IMG/VR virus record: IMGVR_UViG_3300031608_000041
Span: 1-25,575 of that record
Direction: 5' to 3' (one strand)
DNA from: a virus
DNA length: 25,575 nucleotides
Part shown: positions 1-19,689 of the stretch, piece after piece
Position numbering within the stretch: the first letter of the stretch is position 1
How the letters are laid out: the number at the start of each line of letters is the position of its first letter
Position numbers and translations under genes: made by a program
Notes under the pieces: generated by a model
What the model was told of the DNA's origin: nothing
What the model saw: the letters and a program-made list of their open reading frames with translations, nothing else
Databases searched by the model: none

Positions 1-3000
1 CGTATCCTACTACTTGATTTACACTAGTGTTATATCTAATCGAACCAATTGTTTGTGATGCATTTTCTTGTGCAGTTGTACCCTTTGGAACTATCATTGA
101 CCCTGTTGTATTAATAGTTAGTACATCAGCTGGATCTAATTGTAAGTTGCCACTTGTGTTTGTAAAAACATTAGTTCCAAACGTTAGTCCATTATAATCA
201 ACAGTTCCGGTGCCATTTGCATTAAGTTCTAAGTTGCTGTTACTAACCGTTGTTTCTATAAAGTTATCATTAATTTGTATGTTGCCAAGTACTTCAAGTG
301 ATCCTAAATCTACATCATTTTGTATATTAATGTTTGCCGCATATAGCTTGCCTGTTACTGTAATTCCGTTAGTTATCTCAACGTCTTCGTGCATTCTAAC
401 AGTGCCAGTACCGCTTGCACGTAACTCTAAATTAACATCGGTTGCTGTAGTTTTAATCGTGTTGCCACTTATTCTTACGTTATCAATTTGTACTGGAATT
501 CCTGCACTACTTGTATTCAAACTAGATACTGTAAGATTTACAGTATCAAAATCATTTGCAACAGATACAACACCAATAGTAGTTACACCATTAACAGTTA
601 ATCCGTTTTCAATAGTAACGTTGTCATTAAAGTTAACTACGCCAGTACCGTTTGCTCTAAGTTCTAAATTGGCATTTGAATCTTTTGTACTAATTACATT
701 ACCGCTTAAAGATATGCCTTCAAATATACTGCTACCAACACCTGTAATCCCAGTAGCAGTTATATTATTTGCAGTAAGTGTATTAGTTACTGTAGTCGAT
801 TGTAATGAAGTTTCTTTAGTTGTTGTTAAGTTATTACTAACAATAAAGTTTTCTTTAATCTTTACATTGCCTGTTCCAGTACCGCTTAATGTAAGATCAC
901 TGTTGCTTGAAGTTGTAGAAATCTTGTTGCCACTAAGCATAATATCTTCAAATATAATTTGCTTATTTGTCGAGTTTAATGTTTGTACTATTAAGTTGTT
1001 AGCGCCTAAATTGTTTGTTGATGTTGTAGCAACATTACTAGTTGTTGGTGTTATTACATCGCCTGCTAGTTCGACGTTATTTTTAAATCTAACACTGCCA
1101 GTTCCAGATGCCCTAAGCTCTAAGTCACTATTACTAGTAGTAGTTGATATCATGTTATCAGCAATAGCTACATTTTCTATAACAGCATCACCTGTGAGTG
1201 TAATGTTTTGTGAAAGGAATTCCTCTGCAATAACTGCATCGAGACCAGATACGTTTACTAAACTAAAACTAGCAACAGGTGCTATTAAGTCTCGGCCTAA
1301 TACTAAATCTGCTAATACTCTAACTGTACCAGTGCCTGCTGGAACAATTTGTAAATTAGAACTAGCCGAAGTGCCTTGTAAAACATTTCCAGTAAATGAC
1401 ACATTATCAATTGCAACAAATCCTTGTGCAGTTAATGTAGGTGCTGTTGTTGCTAGTAACGTTGCATTATTACTTGTAATATTATTAGCAACAGATACGT
1501 TACCAGTTACTCCGGCAGTACTTGAAAATGTGTTTGTTGCTCCGGTAGTTTGAGTAAAGGTATTATAAAATCTAGCAGGTCCTACAATAGATACCGTGCC
1601 ACTACCTGCGGCTTCTAGCTCTAATCCTGCGTTTGATAACGTAGTGGAAATACTATTTCCTGTTAGGTCAATAGTAGTAAGTACTGCATTGTGCCCTGTT
1701 ACTTTATCCCAGCGTTTAGCACTGCTACCAATTGTATAACTGTTTAAATTAGGAATTAAATTACCTTCAATGTCTGCATTAAAGTCAATCGTATCAGTGT
1801 CTGCATTTCCTAGTCTAATTAGTGTGCCGCCTAGTGTAACATTGCCTGTTACGTTTAAATTGCCCTGCGCTATAGTATTACTAGTAAACGCAATATCGTC
1901 TGCATTTGCATCTAATTTTAAAGTGCCTACAATTGATTCCATTGTAGATCCTGAGAATCTAATAAAATCTGTTTCTACTTTTTCGCCTCTTAAACTAACA
2001 GATTGTCCGCCTGTCGATACTGATAATTTCTCAACACCACTAAAGTCAAAGTTAGTAGAATCAATTACAGTTTCTCCTGTCTCCTGATTTACTATTAAAG
2101 CAGATCCTACTCGATAAGTGCCGTCTTGGTCCATTGACGTAAATAATATATTAGCACTATTTAATTCAGTAACTTCGTTTGCAGGTACAACTAATGTCTT
2201 ATCGTTACTTGTGTCTTTGCCAGTACCAATATATCCAAAGTTATGATTTACTAAGTAGATTAAATTACTTGCGCCGTCAGCTTCGATACCTTTAGTGCCG
2301 TATACATTTGCACTACCAATACATCGTATTTCTGCGCCAAACTTTACACCTTGTCCTGCTTGCCCAGTAGACCCTTGTTCAGCTTTAATTCCAATTGATG
2401 CAAAGTAAGCAAACGAATTTAACCATTCAATCCTTACACCGTTTCTTGCTGTTAATCCTTGTTGTCCTGGAGTAATAAATGTTGCCGCATGGAATAACAT
2501 ACCTGCTTCTTTAGATACTGTTGTAACACTTGCTCCGTCAACTAACGCTCCGCGTCCTGCATCTCCTTGATCAAACCCTCTAGGATCTCCTGCACTTGTT
2601 ACACTACCTTTAGTAATAACTGTACAGTTTCTAATATAAGGACTTCGTGATGTTACTACAGAACTTGCTTTATATCTAAATCCATAACCAGTATCAGCAC
2701 CACTATTATAATAGAAGTCTTTAACAGTTAAGTTTTCAATAGTCACTTCACCGTTAACTAAAAATGCATCATTAGACTCAGTTGCTCCAGTTGGTGTAAT
2801 AATAACATTGCGCATATCTTGTCCAGTTATTGTTACATTTACTGGTACAGTTAAAGGAAACGTTTCTACATAAGTTCCTGGAGATATGTGTATAGTATCG
2901 CCCGAGGATACTAATGTTAATGCCTTTGTTAATGTTAATACAGGATCTAATTGATGGTCGCCTGTAAATGTGTTGTTACCATTTTTAGCAACATAGTATA

Positions 3001-3680
3001 TATTACCTTGTCTGTTAGTAATGTTAACACCGTTAACTATTGCTGTAGTTCCGGTAATATCAGTTGCTGTTACATCGTCTGCCCAAACGTTTGCCCAGCG
3101 TCTACTAGTACTGCCTAAATTATATGTTGCTGTTACATCTGGAATAACATCACTTACAAGCTCTCCTGTAAATGTTAAATCGTCATCGCCGTCGTTACCA
3201 ATTGTAATTGATCCGTCTGAAGTTATAGTTCCACTAGCTTGAATATTACCAGTAACATTTGTGTTTGTTAGAAACTCAATAGTTCCAGAAGCGTTTGGAT
3301 CAAATTCTATACTTGCGTTACTTAGGTAACTGTATATTTTGTTGTCGCGAAGTAATAGTTGATCAGTGCCTATACCAGTTGCAACTACTCCAGTACTCCC
3401 TGAAAGTGTTATTGCTCCGCTTAATGCTGTAAATCCTGTAGGTCTAAATTGTAAGTTTCCAATAGCAACAGTAGTTTGTGACCGTAAGTTTGTAGCACTT
3501 GCTGTGCCAGTAATAGATAAATCTTGTGACGGGGCAGTTGTGTTGACACCAATTTTGTTATTAACTACGTCAAGTTTAAGAACAGGAGTACTAGCACTTA
3601 AATTTCTAAAATCTAAGTTAACATTTTGTCTTAGAAGATCGTCCTCTAAGACTTGCCCGCTTATTCTTCCTAATTGACTC
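1..3680 (-). CDS. Giant repeat-built tail fibre/virion structural protein (C-terminus beyond window)
   Basis: The open frame starts at ATG 3680 and runs for 1226 codons without a stop to the window edge, so the C-terminus is missing. Residues about 240-330 look like a parallel beta-helix (pectin-lyase-like) segment: SSGDTIHISPGTY, then LTVPVNVTITG. Two fibre-type motifs of the LGSTSRRW kind occur near residues 189-196 and 651-658. From about residue 675 to the visible end the chain is mainly a degenerate repeat, [D/G]N-x-I-x-T-T-x-S-N-x-x-L-E-L-x-A-x-G-T-G-x-V, with at least seven copies there and a weaker one near residues 113-138. Near the edge is a GSIRYNTS motif, typical of the end of fibre repeats. 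An ACTAAATA late-promoter box lies 25 bp upstream. The role in tail fibre or host contact is inferred from composition, repeats and neighbours. No known T4 gene is identified. Confidence 0.85.
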
Positions 3681-3704
3681 ATATCTATCCCTTACTTGTT
3701 ACAG

Positions 3705-3765: not shown

Positions 3766-4719
3766 TTAGTTTTCGACATACTTAATACGTGCCGCGCCGT
3801 TACCGCCTCGGTGTCCACTATCTCTAACTCCTGGACACGGTATGGCTGCTGGGCCGCCTGCACCGTAAGGAACATACTGGGTACAACCGTTCATCTGGTA
3901 GCAACCACATGATCTGTTACCCATCCAACACGAACCGTGATACACGCCCTTGTCTGGATTTTTGCTCATTGCATTGAGTGCATTTACATACTGGTGAATT
4001 CCTTGTCCTGACCAGTTAGAGTAAGGATTGTCTGTTTCGATAGCGTATGTTACAGTTCCGCCTTCTTTAGAAAACATGTTTGCTGGTAGTGCCGCATGGT
4101 AATAGAACATACATAAACAAGTGACATAACAGCCTAAGAAACTTGCACAACTAATACGTCCACAGCAATTAACATCGCCGTTGTACGCACACGCAATGTG
4201 TCCGCCATCGTACATACATACTAGACCGCAGTTTGGACCTGTGTTTGTCGCGCAATATCCGTTAGCACGTAAGCAACAATACAGTGATGGTGTTGTTGAG
4301 CAAAAAGAAGTTCCGCTTCTGCCGCCTTGCGCACACAAACAACCGTTTGTACTTGAGCTAAACCAACACATTGCTGAGTTTGAACTACATCCTCTGTTAC
4401 AAAGACCGTCTGCATTACCGCACGATTTACCAAGACAGCCGCATGTATAATTTCCGCTTGTTACGTTGAATGATTTATTAGTATAAGCTCCTGCGTTGCC
4501 TGGTAAGCCTCCGCCACAGCAACACATCTTGCTGCCACTACCGCCTGCTCCCCAAAGCTCTGCTAATACTGTTCCGTTTCCTGGAGCAATCCAACAATAA
4601 CCGTTGCACAAGCAAGTATACATCTGCCCATTGTCAAACGACCATATTTTACCTTTTTCTAGGTTGACTTCAGCGGCACTGAAGTTCTTGCTACCTAGTA
4701 ATGTCTTTAACGATGCCAT
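3766..4719 (-). CDS. Cysteine- and glycine-rich adhesin-like virion protein
   Basis: This 317-aa protein holds 32 cysteines by my count, about 10%, many as CC, CCC or CxC, mixed with Gly, Asn and Ser. Residues about 50-110 show the glycine-rich pattern LAELWGAGGSGS followed by CCCGGG and PGNAG. This recalls the glycine-rich loop architecture of T4-like fibre-tip adhesins (gp38 type), but no homology can be shown here. The C-terminus has GAGGPAAIPCPG and GHRGGNGAARI, again Gly-rich. No signal peptide is visible. The gene lies between small structural genes and the giant fibre gene and ends at a strong terminator. An SD (AAGGAGA) and a GATAAATA late box precede the ATG. A receptor-binding or fibre-tip role is inference. 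Confidence 0.8.
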   Translation of the reverse strand: MASLKTLLGSKNFSAAEVNLEKGKIWSFDNGQMYTCLCNGYCWIAPGNGTVLAELWGAGGSGSKMCCCGGGLPGNAGAYTNKSFNVTSGNYTCGCLGKSCGNADGLCNRGCSSNSAMCWFSSSTNGCLCAQGGRSGTSFCSTTPSLYCCLRANGYCATNTGPNCGLVCMYDGGHIACAYNGDVNCCGRISCASFLGCYVTCLCMFYYHAALPANMFSKEGGTVTYAIETDNPYSNWSGQGIHQYVNALNAMSKNPDKGVYHGSCWMGNRSCGCYQMNGCTQYVPYGAGGPAAIPCPGVRDSGHRGGNGAARIKYVEN

Positions 4720-4737: not shown

Positions 4738-5238
4738 TTATTTATCAAAGTTATGAATCACAGTGATTGGCTTACCTGCCGGGGGCGCCGATGAAAATCT
4801 AATATACCAACCTGCGGCTTTCCCAGCTGGGTTTTGAATTAGTGAATAGTTTGTTCCTGAAATTTGAAATACTGACTCAACTAACACTAGCACGTTTTGT
4901 GCGGCAGTCGGAACAGGACTATCAATATCTCCATTAGCTAACGGACCAAAGTCTAGTTCACTTGCATCGCCTACGCCTAAATTCTGTTGTACAATATTTA
5001 CAGGTTCTTGTCTTTTTAATCTTGCCCAAGTACCGTCTGCATAGGATTCATGGGCTTCGGTTTCTGTATTATATCTAATCATTCCATTAGCTGGAAATAG
5101 CGGTCGACTTGCAGTATTGCCCATTGGTACAACTACTGCTTGTTCACCACCTAGTTGAACAACTTGATTGATATCATACCTAATACCTTTAGCTTTGATA
5201 TTTCGTACGCTAGTACTTTGTGCTTTGATTAATCTCAT
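4738..5238 (-). CDS. Small virion/fibre-associated structural protein (166 aa)
   Basis: Residues about 52-71 carry the pattern GMIRYNT followed by E-x-Y-x-D-G-T-W. This is common in phage fibre and structural proteins, and a GSIRYNTS version occurs near the visible end of the giant fibre protein. The C-terminal half is rich in beta-strand formers and ends TVIHNFDK. The SD GGAAG lies close upstream, and the start is 3 bp from the stop of the 112-aa gene, so the two are probably cotranslated. Virion structural protein is the safest call; the exact position in the particle is unknown. Confidence 0.7.
   Translation of the reverse strand: MRLIKAQSTSVRNIKAKGIRYDINQVVQLGGEQAVVVPMGNTASRPLFPANGMIRYNTETEAHESYADGTWARLKRQEPVNIVQQNLGVGDASELDFGPLANGDIDSPVPTAAQNVLVLVESVFQISGTNYSLIQNPAGKAAGWYIRFSSAPPAGKPITVIHNFDK
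4739..4746 (-). promoter_or_regulatory. Late-promoter box GATAAATA for the Cys-rich protein
   Basis: GATAAATA on the minus strand lies 19 bp upstream of the ATG at 4719. It includes part of the stop codon of the preceding 166-aa gene (GAT AAA TAA). The spacing matches that of the gp48 late box. Confidence 0.5.
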
Positions 5239-5241
5239 TTT

Positions 5242-5580
5242 TTACACTTCCAAGAAGCTTACTGTTGCGCTTAAATTAGTAGGTGATTGTGATATACATA
5301 CAATCTTGTCACCTGCATCTAATACAATTTTTTCACTATCAAACGTAAACGTTTCGCCTGCTGGTAATGTAAGATCGTTAATAACCATATTAACAGCGCC
5401 TTTAGCCGCGCCACTTGCTATAAAGTGCATGTCAAACATTGTTTCACCATGCTCTAAGTGTAGCGGGTTAGTTGCGTCAGTGTTACATACCATTATTGTT
5501 AGCACTGCATATTGTTTTCCTGCTGGAACTAACAATATGTTTGTGTCTGTACTTGCTATTAGTGTGCTTGCTATTGCCAT
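5242..5580 (-). CDS. Small beta-rich structural protein (112 aa)
   Basis: This 112-aa protein has alternating hydrophobic strands and no charged tail, with segments such as ILLVPAGKQYAVLTIMVCN and LTLPAGETFTFDSEKIVLDAGDKI. The pattern fits a small beta-sandwich virion protein in which an external-facing loop follows PAGE or DAGD. The SD AAGGAA lies 7 bp before the ATG. It sits between the 319-aa fibre-like gene (12 bp) and the 166-aa gene (3 bp), probably in one transcript. I do not recognise a T4 counterpart. A structural role is inferred from context and composition. Confidence 0.65.
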   Translation of the reverse strand: MAIASTLIASTDTNILLVPAGKQYAVLTIMVCNTDATNPLHLEHGETMFDMHFIASGAAKGAVNMVINDLTLPAGETFTFDSEKIVLDAGDKIVCISQSPTNLSATVSFLEV

Positions 5581-5592
5581 TATGTTTCCTTT

Positions 5593-6552
5593 TTAAAACA
5601 ACATGCTCAACAAAAGAGCATTCTGTCTACTTATTATTTCGCCTGATTTTGAAGCACTGTGTTTGAAAAACAATCCAGTACCTCCTGCCGCAGGTGCTTT
5701 TACGTATACTTTAAGTCCGTCAAGTGGACTAGCTGGATCTGATCCTTGCAGTGTTAATGTAAAGTTGTCGTTAACTATAACTCCACCAGTTCCTTGTGAT
5801 TCTAAAATTAAATCAGTATCTGACGCAGTAGTTGATAAAATATTATCTTGGAATCTAAAATCTTCAAATTCAACTCTGTTTCCAAAAATTTGTCCCTTGT
5901 TGGTATTATCTATCTGGAAGCTAACTACACTAGGTGCACCACTTACTTCTGTATCTCTAACTTCTACAAACGACTTACTTGCCGAGCCTTCCTCAATTCT
6001 TCTTTGAAAAGTACTTGTAAGTTGTGTTACAATAGTATCATCGACATATTTCTTGTTTGGAATATCATCGTCGTCGGTAATTTGTGTTTCGTAGTTGTTT
6101 GTACCAGTAACACTAATAACACCTGTGCCGGAGTTAATAAGATATAAATCTCCTCCGCCTGTTGATACACTATTAATACGCAAGCCTTGTAGTGTACCTG
6201 ACGCATTAACTAATGTAAAGCCGCCAGTTATAGTTGTAGCACTAATTGGATCAGCCCAAGTAATAGTTTCATCAAACACAATCTTTGCATCAGAGTAACT
6301 ACCCCTGTCTATCTGTATTCCTGATTGATTAAGTGTAATACCTGTACCTGATTCACCATCATTAAGTGTAATAATATTATCTTTTAAGTTCAGATCACTT
6401 GAACTAACTTGTGTGGTTCCTCCTAAGACTACTAAGTTTCCTGTGACAGTTGTAATACCAGAGTTTAAGCCAGTGTCTAGTGTAATGTTACCACCAGATT
6501 GTACTTTAACTTTATAGTCACTATTTGGAAGAGCTAAAATTTTAGAAGACAT
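5593..6552 (-). CDS. Fibre-like virion structural protein (319 aa)
   Basis: This 319-aa protein is rich in Thr, Ser, Gly and Asn. Around residues 53-82 it has LNLKDNIITLNDGESGTG followed by ITLNQSGIQIDRGS, a pattern I associate with marine T4-like fibre/structural proteins. A segment near 160-172, DDDIPNKKYVDD, looks like the fibre motif before a trimeric stalk. Residues about 236-262 hold one copy of the same repeat that builds the giant fibre protein (DNILSTTASDTDLILESQGT). The SD AGGA precedes the ATG. It probably shares a fibre or collar assembly with the neighbouring structural proteins. The name is by pattern only. Confidence 0.75.
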   Translation of the reverse strand: MSSKILALPNSDYKVKVQSGGNITLDTGLNSGITTVTGNLVVLGGTTQVSSSDLNLKDNIITLNDGESGTGITLNQSGIQIDRGSYSDAKIVFDETITWADPISATTITGGFTLVNASGTLQGLRINSVSTGGGDLYLINSGTGVISVTGTNNYETQITDDDDIPNKKYVDDTIVTQLTSTFQRRIEEGSASKSFVEVRDTEVSGAPSVVSFQIDNTNKGQIFGNRVEFEDFRFQDNILSTTASDTDLILESQGTGGVIVNDNFTLTLQGSDPASPLDGLKVYVKAPAAGGTGLFFKHSASKSGEIISRQNALLLSMLF

Positions 6553-7182: not shown

Positions 7183-8355
7183 TTAGCTAAAGCTAACGTT
7201 TGCAGATGTTATAGCAACATTCGCTAAGTAATCAGCGGCATTACCCAATGAAGATGCTGTGTTTGATAACTCAACATATCCATAACGAGTCATAAAGCTC
7301 ACTACTGGTTCGAATGTAGATGGATCCATTACAACACCACTTGACATCAACGGGATGTATGGGCAGTAAAATGCTGGAGCATCTGATTCACTATTACCTT
7401 TGTAACCAACAAGCGCCATAGCGTTATCGGCTGCGTAAGTATCTACATATACACGCATTGCATTGTTCAATGTACCAACAAACTTAGTGTTTGTAGGTGC
7501 TTCAAACGTGCCTTCCGTAGTACGTGCAAAAGCACTTGTAGTAGCAGACTGTAGGATTGTTAGTGCAAAAGGACTAACAACACAATAGTTACCTGCGCCA
7601 CGACGTGTACGCTGAGCAATCAAGTTAGCCGCTCTGTTGATCTGAACTGCCAATGCGGCATGCTCGTCACCAACGAAAGTTGCTGTACCTGAAACGGCTT
7701 GTTGGTTGTACGTTTGTACAGCCGTGCCACTCAATGAACGCAATGAAGCAATAACTTCCTGGTCAATCTCAGCAGTAATCTCTTGTGCAAGAGCTGCCAT
7801 GATTTCAGCTTCGACATCAATGCCGTGCTGTGCTTGTGCATCCTGAGCTGATTCAAAAGTCCAACGAGCACTTAACTTACGTGTTTTCGCTTCAACTGTT
7901 TGCTTCAAGATCTGAATGCTAAGTTTGTTACCAGCAGTACCTTCTGCTAAACTTGTTCCTTTTGCTTTACCAGCATCGGAACCAGCTTCGTCACCTGAAT
8001 AACCAACAGCAATTTTGAATGGGCTTAAAGCCTCTTCGCCACTTGTTGCATCATCAGCTGTATCACTGTAACGTACTCTTAATGTGTGGATTTGTCCCAC
8101 AGGACCGGTCATCGGTTGTACACCAACTAGCTCATTTGCTATTACTGTTGGCATAACACGTCTGATAACTGGTAAAATAACTCTGTTAAGAGTTGCGACA
8201 TTACCGGCAGTAGTCGAACCAGCGGCTGATGTTTCAGACAAATACTTGCGAGTATTTTCTAAAGTTGCTGACATTACAGATTTTTTAGTTCCTGAAAGGC
8301 CTTCCATCAATGCTGTTTTCGTCTCTTGCCAGCGACTTTCTAGTAATTCTGACAT
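7183..8355 (-). CDS. gp23: Major capsid protein gp23-like
   Basis: This 390-aa protein is the shell hexamer subunit of a T4-type head. The diagnostic stretch at about residues 62-95, IRRVMPTVIANELVGVQPM then TGPVGQIHTLRVRY, corresponds to the T4 gp23 segment around VQPMNSPTGQ. The precursor N-terminus (delta region) seems short. LSE at residues 39-41 sits where T4 has its LTE cleavage site for gp21, but is followed by Thr rather than Ala/Gly. An alternative site is LME|G at 16-19. The SD AAGGAGA precedes the ATG, 12 bp after the gp22 stop. The gene ends at a strong terminator, so it is the last gene of the head operon. It is shorter than T4 gp23 (521 aa). Confidence 0.97.
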   Translation of the reverse strand: MSELLESRWQETKTALMEGLSGTKKSVMSATLENTRKYLSETSAAGSTTAGNVATLNRVILPVIRRVMPTVIANELVGVQPMTGPVGQIHTLRVRYSDTADDATSGEEALSPFKIAVGYSGDEAGSDAGKAKGTSLAEGTAGNKLSIQILKQTVEAKTRKLSARWTFESAQDAQAQHGIDVEAEIMAALAQEITAEIDQEVIASLRSLSGTAVQTYNQQAVSGTATFVGDEHAALAVQINRAANLIAQRTRRGAGNYCVVSPFALTILQSATTSAFARTTEGTFEAPTNTKFVGTLNNAMRVYVDTYAADNAMALVGYKGNSESDAPAFYCPYIPLMSSGVVMDPSTFEPVVSFMTRYGYVELSNTASSLGNAADYLANVAITSANVSFS

Positions 8356-10104: not shown

Positions 10105-11049
10105 TTATTTGCCAATGATCGATTTTTTATCACTAGCTGTTTCGCCTGCGCCTTTTTTCTCAGCACCGTGGCCTTTTGACATAGCTTTCATACCTGTTTT
10201 TCCGACTTTAGCACCCGGAACGTTTATGTTGCCCATGTTGTCCTCTTTAGGAGTTGGGTCAGCTAAGCCGCCTTTAGTTCCTTCAGAATTGGATTCGCCA
10301 CCTTGGTTTAAATTACCTGATGTGCCGTCGCCCATTTTGTTAGCACTTGCTGTTGGGGATTTAGTGTTTGCACCGTTGTCGCCCATTGTAGCATTTACTT
10401 TTTCAACATATTCACGCATGGTTTCTGCTTCTGATTTATCAGCTTCTTCGACTTCTTCATCAGTTGCTTCGTCTACGTCAAGATCAAAACTCTCTTCTTC
10501 AGGAGCTTCTTCTTCGTCACCGTCGTCACCTTCGGCATCGTCTTCTTCGCCTTCTTCGTCATCATCGGAATCCATATCGGAACCCATTTCTGCATCAAAA
10601 GCCGCTTTTAACTTTTCAATTTCGTCTTGCAAGTCTGCAATGTCGTCTGCCATGTCGCCTTCTTCAGCATCATCAGCATCCATATCAGCATCAGCATCAG
10701 GCATTTCTAAGTCGCGCATCATGTCTGCTGATTGATCCATATCCATTGGATCTGCTTCTACTTCAAATTCATCTAGATCAAAGTTTTCTTCTAACTCTTC
10801 ATCTGACTCTTCTACTTCTTCATCTGACTCTTCTACTTCTTCGTCACTAGATTCATCAACTTCTTCATCAGTTGCTTCATCTACTTCTTCGTCGGTTGTT
10901 TCGTCAACTTCAAGATCATCTTCTAAAAGATTCTCATAAATACTTCTGGATTTTTCTACAACTATTTCGTGAAATAGTGCTTCCGCTCCAGCGCGGTCTT
11001 CGTTAACTAATTTTTCGAGCATTTCCTCGAATTTATTACGTTCGCTCAT
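10105..11049 (-). CDS. Acidic prohead core protein (gp67/gp68-like N-terminus)
   Basis: This 314-aa protein lies between the portal region and gp21, where T4 has gp67 and gp68. The N-terminal 45 residues (DRAGAEALFHEIVVEKSRSI then YENLLED) resemble the start of a T4-type prohead core protein. They are followed by an extremely acidic, repetitive zone at about residues 45-205 with TDEEVDE and SDEEVEE heptads. The tail is Gly/Lys/Asn-rich and ends KKSIIGK. It is far longer than T4 gp67 (80 aa) or gp68 (141 aa). A GTAAATAC late box lies 53 bp upstream and the SD AGGAGAG precedes the ATG. A role as prohead core component is likely; the choice between gp67 and gp68 is uncertain. Confidence 0.75.
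   Translation of the reverse strand: MSERNKFEEMLEKLVNEDRAGAEALFHEIVVEKSRSIYENLLEDDLEVDETTDEEVDEATDEEVDESSDEEVEESDEEVEESDEELEENFDLDEFEVEADPMDMDQSADMMRDLEMPDADADMDADDAEEGDMADDIADLQDEIEKLKAAFDAEMGSDMDSDDDEEGEEDDAEGDDGDEEEAPEEESFDLDVDEATDEEVEEADKSEAETMREYVEKVNATMGDNGANTKSPTASANKMGDGTSGNLNQGGESNSEGTKGGLADPTPKEDNMGNINVPGAKVGKTGMKAMSKGHGAEKKGAGETASDKKSIIGK
10785..10905 (-). repeat. Tandem 21-bp acidic repeats in the core protein gene
   Basis: The coding strand repeats units encoding SDEEVEE and then TDEEVDE/SSDEEVD heptads back to back. The nucleotide copies around 10800-10845 are nearly identical, which suggests repeat expansion. Confidence 0.7.
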
Positions 11050-12012: not shown

Positions 12013-12020
12013 TATTTATA
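12013..12020 (-). promoter_or_regulatory. TATAAATA box at the gp20 stop codon
   Basis: This is a perfect T4 late box on the minus strand that includes the gp20 stop (GTA TAA ATA). It ends only 5 bp before the ATG at 12007, so initiation there would give an almost leaderless message for that gene. It may rather serve the genes further down. Confidence 0.4.
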
Positions 12021-13755
12021 CAGTTACGCCAGTATTACCTGCGTCCCCTGCATCTCCTCCTGCTGTTGGATCAGCACCTGTGTCCATAGCACCTTCAATT
12101 GGTGCTCCTTCTTCTGGTGCTTGGTCTTCCATACTGCCCATGTCGCCTGCTATTCCTGCGCCACTAATACCGGCAGTTCTCATTTCACCTTCGGCATCCG
12201 ACGGAGCTGGATCTAAGTTCTCGTCATTTTCTTCTTTCCACATACGTTCATTCTCTGCTACTTCTTCAGCACTAAGTCCTAAGAAGCGTTGAAGCGCAAA
12301 ACGATTAGAAATATAAGGTATAGCACTCATTTGTGTGTATGTTGGTACACGAGCATTATCAATTTCACTTTGTCTATAGCTTGCAAAGTTTTGTGGAGGT
12401 TGGAAACGTAAATCAAACATTGCAGTGTCTACGTTTACGCCTTTTTCAAGTATATAACGTTTGAACTCTTGATTAAGTTCTTCAACTACTAAGTTTTGTA
12501 ATCGTTCGCAGTATGTGTTGAAACGAAGTTCTTGAATGTATGCCGTGCCCACTCTGCCGTCATTATACTGTGCCGCACTATCGTCTGCTCCCGTTGGTAA
12601 GTAGCTACTAGGGATTCGTAAACCACGTACGAGCTTATTAGTAAAATATCTAAGGTCATCAATTTCTCCAAGGTTAGTACCGCCAGGCAATGTTTCAACT
12701 TTTGATCCACGTCCTTCAGCAGTTTGTGGGAAGAAATAATCTTCGTTAATTGATAACGGATTATAACTACTATCAATTACATTAGTGCCGCCGCCAGTTG
12801 CACTAGGAATACGTCTCTGATGTATTTCTGTTTTTACTCGCTCAACAAATTGCATTGCTAAGTGACTTGGCATATTACCTACGTCAACATAAAATACTCT
12901 TCTTTCCGGAGCACGTTGTACACGATAGATAATAATTGCATCTTCAAGTAATTCTTTTTGCTTGTATACTTTAAAAACTGTTTCTAACAAACTATTACCA
13001 AACGGATAGTTTTGATCTAGTCCTTCACTTAAACTTAAATGTATAACGTTTTCAGCGTTAACTGATAGTTCTCCATCTTCTGTAGTGTAACGGTTACCAG
13101 CACCTTGTGGTGCATTACCTACCATGCCGCGCACTTGGCCGCCTTGTGTACCACCACCGCCATTAACATTTCCGCTTGTAACATGCGGAGTAGTTGCAAC
13201 CATATCTCTAAAGTTTAAGTTAAAGTTTTTAATAACATATTGCTCAGGTGTTTTGCCTTCGCTTTCGTTAACAATGATACGTGTTACGTTTGCACTGTCT
13301 ACGTGGAATAATTTTTTAGTTTCTGGATCTCTTACAAAAAACTGATCTCCATACTTAAACACATTGCGCAATATTCTAAACATACGTGTTTCAAATTTGT
13401 TTAACTTACACCATTGCTGTAAGTACTGCGCTATAATAGTAGTTTCAGTGTTTGTAGATTTCTTTTTAAAGTCTATTGTAAAAGGAGTTCTGTTATTAGT
13501 ATTTTGTTGCGAACAAAACTCTGCTAGAATATCAAGTGCCGCATTAACTTCTGAATCCATATCCATAGTGTTATACTGGCCGTAACGTTCAACTCTGTTA
13601 GGACTTCCTACATATACATCCGGTAAGTAAGAACTGTAATTAGTTCTTGCAGGCCCAGGAGTTCCGCCGTTATACTTTCCACCGCCTAACGGTGAATAGC
13701 TTCCTCCCATATTGTCGCCTGTTTGTACAGGTGTAAAATGCTTCTTCCAACTCAT
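12016..13755 (-). CDS. gp20: Portal vertex protein gp20-like
   Basis: This 579-aa protein forms the dodecameric portal through which DNA is packaged and the tail attaches. Recognisable gp20 features are the N-terminal NTMDMDSEVNAALDILAEFC (residues about 62-81) and the central VKYGDQFFVR-like stretch (FKYGDQFFVRDPE). Further stretches are LEDAIIIYRVQRAPERRVFY and the conserved YFTNKLVRGLRIPSSYLP segment. The C-terminus is an acidic Gly/Ala/Asp-rich tail. It is somewhat longer than T4 gp20 (524 aa). It follows the tape-measure candidate by 17 bp, with SD TAGGAAA before the ATG, and leads the head cassette. Confidence 0.97.
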   Translation of the reverse strand: MSWKKHFTPVQTGDNMGGSYSPLGGGKYNGGTPGPARTNYSSYLPDVYVGSPNRVERYGQYNTMDMDSEVNAALDILAEFCSQQNTNNRTPFTIDFKKKSTNTETTIIAQYLQQWCKLNKFETRMFRILRNVFKYGDQFFVRDPETKKLFHVDSANVTRIIVNESEGKTPEQYVIKNFNLNFRDMVATTPHVTSGNVNGGGGTQGGQVRGMVGNAPQGAGNRYTTEDGELSVNAENVIHLSLSEGLDQNYPFGNSLLETVFKVYKQKELLEDAIIIYRVQRAPERRVFYVDVGNMPSHLAMQFVERVKTEIHQRRIPSATGGGTNVIDSSYNPLSINEDYFFPQTAEGRGSKVETLPGGTNLGEIDDLRYFTNKLVRGLRIPSSYLPTGADDSAAQYNDGRVGTAYIQELRFNTYCERLQNLVVEELNQEFKRYILEKGVNVDTAMFDLRFQPPQNFASYRQSEIDNARVPTYTQMSAIPYISNRFALQRFLGLSAEEVAENERMWKEENDENLDPAPSDAEGEMRTAGISGAGIAGDMGSMEDQAPEEGAPIEGAMDTGADPTAGGDAGDAGNTGVTV

Positions 13756-19241: not shown

Positions 19242-19676
19242 TTATGTGTTGGAATGATTTGCCTGTAAATGCTCTTTAAGAATTTTGGATCCGCCAACTC
19301 TAACATTAATAATACCATTGTAGTATTCGTCTGTTTCGAGTACTCTGCGTTCAAACTGTTCTCGCGCCTCTAAGTAACTTGCTATGCCTCTGCTAGGACA
19401 AATGTGAATAATTTCTCTTATAAAATTATCTTCGCCTAACTCTAAAACGTCTGCATTAAGTCTATCACTGGAACCGTAATAAGTTTGCCAGTCACTTTCT
19501 TTAGTGCTACGTCTTTTGTTTTTTTTGCCTTTGAGTGGTTTCTTTGTTACTTTAAATTTTGCTAGTTTTTTGCCTACGTACATCATGCCATTGACTTTGT
19601 TTGTTATCAAGTAAACAAACGCTTCACAACCTTCTGGCAGTTCGTCTATTTGTTTACCTTGATAAGTCCATTGCAT
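19242..19676 (-). CDS. GIY-YIG-like endonuclease domain protein
   Basis: This protein of about 144 aa (ATG 19676; an in-frame GTG three bases earlier is possible) has VYLITNKVNGMMYVGKK near residues 21-37. This is a variant of the GIY-YIG nuclease core, with VYL in place of GIY and YVG in place of YIG. A Lys/Arg-rich loop follows, then SDWQTYYGSS and a candidate metal-binding Glu in SYLEAREQF. There is no separate DNA-binding domain, unlike T4 Seg or I-TevI enzymes, so it could be a free-standing repair or intergenic homing nuclease. It follows the 68-aa gene by about 13 bp in the gp47-gp46 transcript. Activity is unproven, since the canonical Gly-Ile-Tyr is not kept. Confidence 0.65.
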   Translation of the reverse strand: MQWTYQGKQIDELPEGCEAFVYLITNKVNGMMYVGKKLAKFKVTKKPLKGKKNKRRSTKESDWQTYYGSSDRLNADVLELGEDNFIREIIHICPSRGIASYLEAREQFERRVLETDEYYNGIINVRVGGSKILKEHLQANHSNT

Positions 19677-19689
19677 CACATACTTATTG

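Follow-up and report, generated by a model that had tools for sequence, protein, structure and literature searches.

The window (all 25,575 nucleotides of IMG/VR record IMGVR_UViG_3300031608_000041, a 25.6-kb virus contig) is, judging from its encoded proteins, derived from a T4-like tailed phage. It encodes a T4-like major capsid protein (7183..8355, minus strand) with 69% identity to that of Sinorhizobium phage Phosso, a portal protein (12016-13755) nearest to those of Atu_ph07, Phosso, and PA5oct at about 49-50% identity, and a T4 baseplate protein. Downstream of the capsid gene, in the same structural block and likewise on the minus strand, lies the gene for P0001 (3766..4719), a 317-aa Cys/Gly-rich protein that, on its composition, homologues, and predicted TNF-like/glycine-rich fold, is a putative fibre-tip adhesin and the unpaired member 'A' of a trio of paralogues. 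The gene sits between small structural ORFs and a giant gene for a baseplate-wedge/tail-fibre-like protein (2..3682, minus strand; PHROG 13163, baseplate wedge subunit, E 8e-107) that lies next downstream and runs off the window, the protein reaching 1414 aa in relative L172. On its upstream side, and also on the minus strand, are a directly adjoining 166-aa protein whose first half resembles a stretch of virion structural proteins (4738..5238; PHROG 6005, E 5e-8, residues 22-70), a 112-aa small protein that is probably virion structural (5242..5580; PHROG 1276, unknown function), and a 319-aa fibre-like protein (5593..6552; weak match to PHROG 15769), with order or position kept in relatives for all three. 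Elsewhere in the window are a very acidic, TDEEVDE-type repeat-rich protein beside the prohead genes (10105-11049) and a putative SegE-type GIY-YIG endonuclease (19242-19679; Pfam E 1e-32).

Read on the minus strand, the ORF from 4719 to 3766 (stop included) encodes 317 residues with 32 cysteines (10.1%) and 50 glycines; the plus strand of 3766-4719 is full of stops, and the original prediction had named no strand. That prediction had drawn attention to an extreme cysteine content with CCC, CC, and CxC clusters, which was borne out: CCC lies at residues 66-68, CC at 148-149 and 185-186, and CxC at 36/38, 93/95, 127/129, 201/203, and 271/273. The 24 other window ORFs taken as genes together hold 33 cysteines in 7,705 residues (0.43%), so that the cysteine richness of P0001 is not compositional drift, and against this background 32 cysteines in 317 residues lie far beyond chance (binomial 4e-33). 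The ORF is a real gene, as seen from its dN/dS values (~0.29 against its 92%-identical relatives and 0.14 against a 78%-identical one) and from the gene order kept in relatives.

A first scan of IMG/VR returned 53 loci with proteins 42-100% identical to P0001; a second scan, based on alignment, confirmed 248 stretches, and the top 80 of these were retrieved. Proteins of the first homologue set held 28-34 cysteines, and the 175 distinct near-full-length copies held 28-46 each (8.6-11.9%). Cysteine was the most conserved residue type in 120 homologues (mean 0.85, followed by tryptophan at 0.79 and glycine at 0.77), and within a close clade (n = 14) mean entropy was 0.12 for cysteine, 0.21 for glycine, and 0.78 for all other residues. 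Tabulated by paralogue group, about 22 cysteine positions were near-fixed in every group (P0001 residues 42, 66-68, 100, 107, 111, 127, 129, 140, 149, 156, 164, 168, 201, 203, 264, 271, 273, 279, and 295 and, with exceptions, 118, 148, 191, and 197), and positions 38, 90, 93, 95, 170, 185, 186, and 219 were group-specific. Homologues thus keep their cysteines at equivalent positions, on which the original prediction depended. The CCC motif was present in 175/175 homologues, although one locus-finding pattern itself contained CCC, so that the fixity of 66-68 among the seeds came partly by selection; tandem sisters and cyanophage proteins, found independently of that requirement, still had about 8-12% cysteine.

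Neither P0001 nor its distant homologue L051 had a tblastn match in 50,697 phage records, a search in which a cyanophage member used as query found itself, so the method works on cysteine-rich queries, and P0001 had no PDB match by sequence. The A1 profile found no homologue in Phosso, Munch, Atu_ph07, PA5oct, or S-SCSM1, in a run that held no positive control and with a profile that matched in other searches. A search of bacterial and archaeal genomes gave 1 match, in a contig of a metagenome-assembled genome, which we took to be of viral origin and binned along with it.

Evaluating how fast the gene changes, we found P0001 to be 78% identical to its counterpart in L058, the closest informative pair, where the capsid protein is 100% and other neighbours 88-99.5% identical, yet still 68-72% identical in L059 to L065, where identity is down to 44-66% for the giant fibre and 58-83% for the 319-aa protein. 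These comparisons suggest an initially rapid divergence of P0001 that its Cys/Gly frame later restrains. A simpler description of P0001 as the fastest gene of the block was rejected, since it is true for the close pair only and the giant fibre is faster at larger distance. The hypervariable loops that had been proposed found partial support: between P0001 and its 78%-identical homologue in L004 there are 69 differences, all at residues other than cysteine, with 0 cysteines lost and all 32 kept, but the dN/dS values indicate selection that is purifying overall and not diversifying.

Modelled by AF2 with 22 sequences, P0001 reached a pLDDT of 68, and with 114 homologues a pLDDT of 82.9 and a pTM of 0.82. 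VIA-align of the model placed the Pam3 fibre protein gp24 at the top (Z 15.7 and 15.2), followed by the tail tip of Bxb1 (11.8) and the TG domain of ALK/LTK (Z 7.5-9.5), with all remaining rows <5, and an earlier, lower-confidence model ranked them alike. Uncharacterised proteins of S-CAM3 and P-SSM2 came out best in a comparison with predicted viral structures. The predicted fold is that of TNF-like plus glycine-rich fibre tips of the Pam3 gp24 type. Pam3 gp24 (PDB 7ypx, 7yfw) likewise combines a TNF-like sandwich with a glycine-rich loop domain (203 residues aligned at 16% identity) and, as is probable for the trio system, is a fibre with its own chaperone gene; it differs in being a homotrimer encoded by one gene, with a 39% Gly loop domain and a long N-terminal helical shaft, and the paper that describes it does not mention cysteine (PMC9608196). 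The model of P0001 has a 6-residue N-terminal helix only (residues 4-9), in place of the long trimerising helix of the Pam3 type. ALK/LTK ectodomains share the TNF-like and glycine-rich fold, but these are animal receptors, and the likeness says nothing on the function of P0001.

The glycine-rich, polyglycine-type domain named in the original prediction proved right as to fold family, but with far less glycine than is usual for it. Residues 43-314 of P0001 align to positions 8-225 of the 226 in Gly_rich_2 (PF21722), nearly its whole length, but the score lies under the cut-off (17.6 vs 24.3 bits), about one residue in ten is cysteine, and glycine is at roughly half its usual level; 5/114 homologues match the model at E<0.01, and the third copy of S-CAM1 scores 40.4. 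Over 175 homologues the composition is about 18% Gly and 11% Cys, and so not glycine-dominated, whereas ordinary Gly_rich_2 domains that these or related phages encode elsewhere than in the cassette contain 0-3% Cys and 23-42% Gly. On the predicted model, P0001 is a cysteine-fixed old variant of the known TNF-like/glycine-rich fibre-tip fold. As a separate observation, giant ORFs of Phosso that exceed 3,000 aa (PV764938.1 50555-64859; L183, L188, L192) hold ordinary glycine-rich domains almost devoid of cysteine.

Searching whole viral records with the family profile yielded 48 records of uncultured viruses, 44 of which hold three copies (in 1 the third is cut by the contig end), arranged either as three in tandem, with a median gap of 4 bp, or as one copy plus a pair ~23 kb away. 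The window holds the single copy A, and in split-type viruses B and C lie ~23 kb further on. The four records with 1-2 copies (G015, G019, G026, G028) belong to the split type, and their contigs stop short of where the missing copies are expected; in the uncultured family there are three paralogues per virus wherever the contig is long enough. Records with four profile matches proved to have the middle copy split by an insert. At L121:6761-7996 and its equivalents in L031, L097, L119, and L124, a lineage that includes a 353-kb contig, the middle copy has an extra insert of ~80 aa with conserved cysteines of its own. In a 58-sequence tree each of the 9 slot groups (3 lineages x 3 positions) formed one clade, with 8 changes of slot label (the minimum possible) vs 42 when shuffled, so each lineage has held its triplet for a long time. 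Six of the slot clades had 100% support, and those of the three tandem-lineage slots appeared in 48-72% of bootstrap trees; tandem slot 2 pairs with jumbo slot 3 (98/98), and the slots of the split lineage form one group of three (94/87). In the wider group the rule of three has exceptions, as P-SSM2 has two copies and AG-345-P14 one.

Gene order around the trio is kept in relatives, running from the giant fibre through ORFs of 106-112 aa and 108 aa to the Cys trio, an ORF of 208-231 aa, a GT9-like gene, and a carbamoyltransferase, and in tandem lineages the trio adjoins giant baseplate/fibre genes. In 53/53 loci the 208-231 aa ORF comes after the last copy, and 6/6 tested members of its family match phrog_9740, whose S-SSM7 protein exceeds the Phage_tail_APC cut-off (E 1e-9) and also matches tail fibre assembly PHROGs. 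On the Phage_tail_APC match in the S-SSM7 member, the ORF probably encodes a folding chaperone of the fibre, and a dedicated chaperone gene close by, as in the Pam3 gp24 system, would be represented by the phrog_9740 ORF, which does not adjoin the window's own copy. A GT9-like glycosyltransferase gene lies <=3.5 kb downstream of the trio in 49/50 loci, the divergent lineage L048 having its trio with no GT nearby; the L034 transferase is just over the Pfam GT9 (heptosyltransferase) cut-off (22.4 vs 22 bits), and the carbamoyltransferase has strong Pfam hits. Examples of this pair after the trio are L173:7862-11607, L034:7713-10459, and L121:9726-12486, to which cyanophages add a heptose kinase, a phosphoheptose isomerase, a 'cysteine dioxygenase', and an epimerase. 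The GT9-carbamoyltransferase set may modify the virion or the host LPS; a 2010 comparative paper described the adjoining LPS-type genes (T4-GC 304, 305, 307, 308) and gave their functionality as not known (PMC3037559).

The GT9-carbamoyltransferase pair was also our route to cultured cyanophages. At the same cassette position S-CAM1 encodes three proteins with 36, 31, and 25 cysteines, S-SSM7 three with 29, 28, and 30, and P-SSM2 two with 36 each, all annotated 'hypothetical' and of unknown function in PHROG. Profile-profile comparison groups them with the family of P0001 (99.6%, E 1.5e-23), and the PHROG 4205 profile matches P0001 over residues 33-315 (E 4.7e-8). The order in tandem lineages is that of S-CAM1 and S-SSM7, and for the window's copy it is the sister pair alone that lies in such a cassette. 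The proteins of PHROG 4205/35878 (from S-CAM1, S-CAM3, S-SSM7, Sf-FS3, and P-SSM2) share the cassette, have 7.6-11.6% cysteine, and in several cases show a WGAGG..CCC-like frame, but they are about 18-25% identical to P0001, are not detected from it by tblastn, and match its cysteine pattern only in part, P-SSM2 having two copies. No paper on cysteine-rich proteins of P-SSM2 was found in the collection searched. A Cys-rich trio is thus carried by marine and freshwater T4-like phages among their tail-fibre genes; neither this cassette and its trio nor the relatives in cyanophages figured in the original prediction, and they are new here.

Taken as a tip adhesin, of fibre or baseplate, P0001 is very likely placed correctly: the adhesin-like fibre tip of the original prediction is supported by the predicted fold, the baseplate/fibre neighbours, and the fibre-chaperone-like gene beside the paralogue pair. 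A capsid decoration protein is improbable, for while some 2.5 kb separates the gene from that of the capsid protein in the window's lineage, the trio of tandem lineages stands beside giant baseplate/fibre genes, and fold and chaperone-like neighbour suit fibre tips. The fuller account that we consider reasonably probable is a tip adhesin whose trio belongs to one tip system with a chaperone, cysteine-held loops, and likely disulfides after lysis. In it a TNF-like beta-sandwich would carry the glycine-rich loop domain, with cysteine in place of much of the glycine; A, B, and C would be paralogous subunits serving a single tip system, with their folding chaperone probably encoded by the gene that follows the pair; and the loops would bear the changing, receptor-facing residues while conserved cysteines fix the position of one loop against another. 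The thiols would be reduced during folding in the cell and, after lysis in oxic water, would form disulfides within and perhaps between subunits, giving a rigid tip that dispenses with a high glycine content. Presence in the virion, receptor binding, disulfides, and association of the three subunits are what we infer from this evidence.

How the subunits associate may be read in two ways that share the adhesin function. A hetero-oligomer of the three is a tentative suggestion drawn from the three-copy rule, weakened by the split arrangement and by the copy numbers of P-SSM2 and AG-345-P14. The alternative, in which each paralogue independently forms a homotrimeric adhesin for a receptor of its own, has a little under an even chance: Pam3 gp24 is a homotrimer (PMC9608196), one copy stands ~23 kb from the other two in the window's lineage, and P-SSM2 and AG-345-P14 make do with two copies and one, but the strict three-copy rule in the uncultured family, the 4-bp median gap between tandem copies, the recurrence of three copies in S-SSM7 and S-CAM1, and a single chaperone-like gene after all copies argue against independence. 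The most elaborate form of the proposal, in which the cassette would make an undescribed hetero-oligomeric adhesin of marine and freshwater T4-like phages, with three Cys-dense subunits served by one chaperone, sugar-modified by the GT9-carbamoyltransferase pair, and passing from a reduced form to a covalently locked tip in oxic water, is unlikely to hold in every part.

What the cysteines mainly do is split similarly, with disulfides given an even chance and metal binding, on the one hand, and some role other than these two, on the other, each considerably less probable. Disulfides formed after release are favoured by the oxic water met after lysis and by analogy with phage Milano, a precedent for disulfides in the virion (PMC10811340) and a possible parallel for a virion stabilised by cysteine, but the structural proteins of Milano average 2.1% Cys, its disulfides link sheath, tube, baseplate, and fibre anchors, and what is proven there is proposed for the trio. 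Odd and even cysteine totals were equally common in 175 homologues (88/87) and losses were not cleanly paired, the best co-varying pairs (42/201, 170/186, and 118/191) falling short of a clear partner assignment, so that a simple all-disulfide scheme is not favoured and metal binding remains in play. Nor is there a consistent redox helper, as glutaredoxin exceeded the cut-off in 2/16 records; a sulfhydryl oxidase search, run with no working control, gave no match. The metal reading keeps the adhesin and has its cysteines bind Zn, Fe, or Cu, ordering loops or luring a metal-uptake receptor (the Trojan or Ferrojan Horse idea), and we hold it to be a minority possibility. Besides the parity of totals it draws on the CCC in all 175 homologues, the CC and CxC clusters, sites that can form in a reducing cytoplasm, and the iron reported at T4-like fibre tips, but that iron is held by HxH motifs of histidine and not by cysteine (PMC11705849), histidine is scarce here (2%), the cysteines are spread across the whole loop domain instead of being gathered at a single compact site, none of the metal-binding Pfam models turns up repeatedly in the 114 members, and the CCC fixity owes something to the search pattern. 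That cysteine simply replaces glycine as a small residue in a tight loop lattice, kept for packing and neither cross-linked nor metal-bound, would fit the fall of glycine from 23-42% to about 18% as cysteine rises from 0-3% to about 11% in the same domain; this seems unlikely, since Ala or Ser would serve, variable cysteine columns often show Arg, Tyr, or Thr instead, and about 22 positions remain cysteine in nearly all paralogue groups. Least probable of all is that cysteines or other residues of the trio are modification sites, for instance for sugar from the GT9-like transferase and carbamoyltransferase: the proximity of these genes in nearly all loci, the L034 score, the strong carbamoyltransferase hits, the same pair with heptose-pathway genes in cyanophages, and the known heptosylation of bacterial adhesins (PMC4358343) speak for it, but other virion proteins or host LPS may be the pair's substrates, L048 has a trio with no nearby GT, and in the window's lineage the single copy is >20 kb from these genes.

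Returning to the tip adhesin, it is receptor-binding tips that determine which hosts abundant aquatic viruses infect, and this tip protein would still stand among the 'hypothetical' ones because its sequence changes beyond the reach of BLAST while its cysteines stay. Each subunit has 25-40 cysteines made in a reducing cytoplasm, which raises the question of when and how they are locked, and the cultured cyanophages S-CAM1, S-SSM7, and P-SSM2, with the same cassette, make testing practical. As to hosts, psbA was absent from the 16 records searched (the control worked), so these contigs give no hint of cyanobacterial hosts. The same trio occurs in L135 (PAOW01000006.1), a contig binned into a marine Euryarchaeota genome, which is probably a viral contig in the bin yet offers a host hint. 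The capsid and portal proteins of the window resemble those of Phosso and jumbo phages and the adhesin cassette is common with cyanophages, a possible mosaic of lineages.
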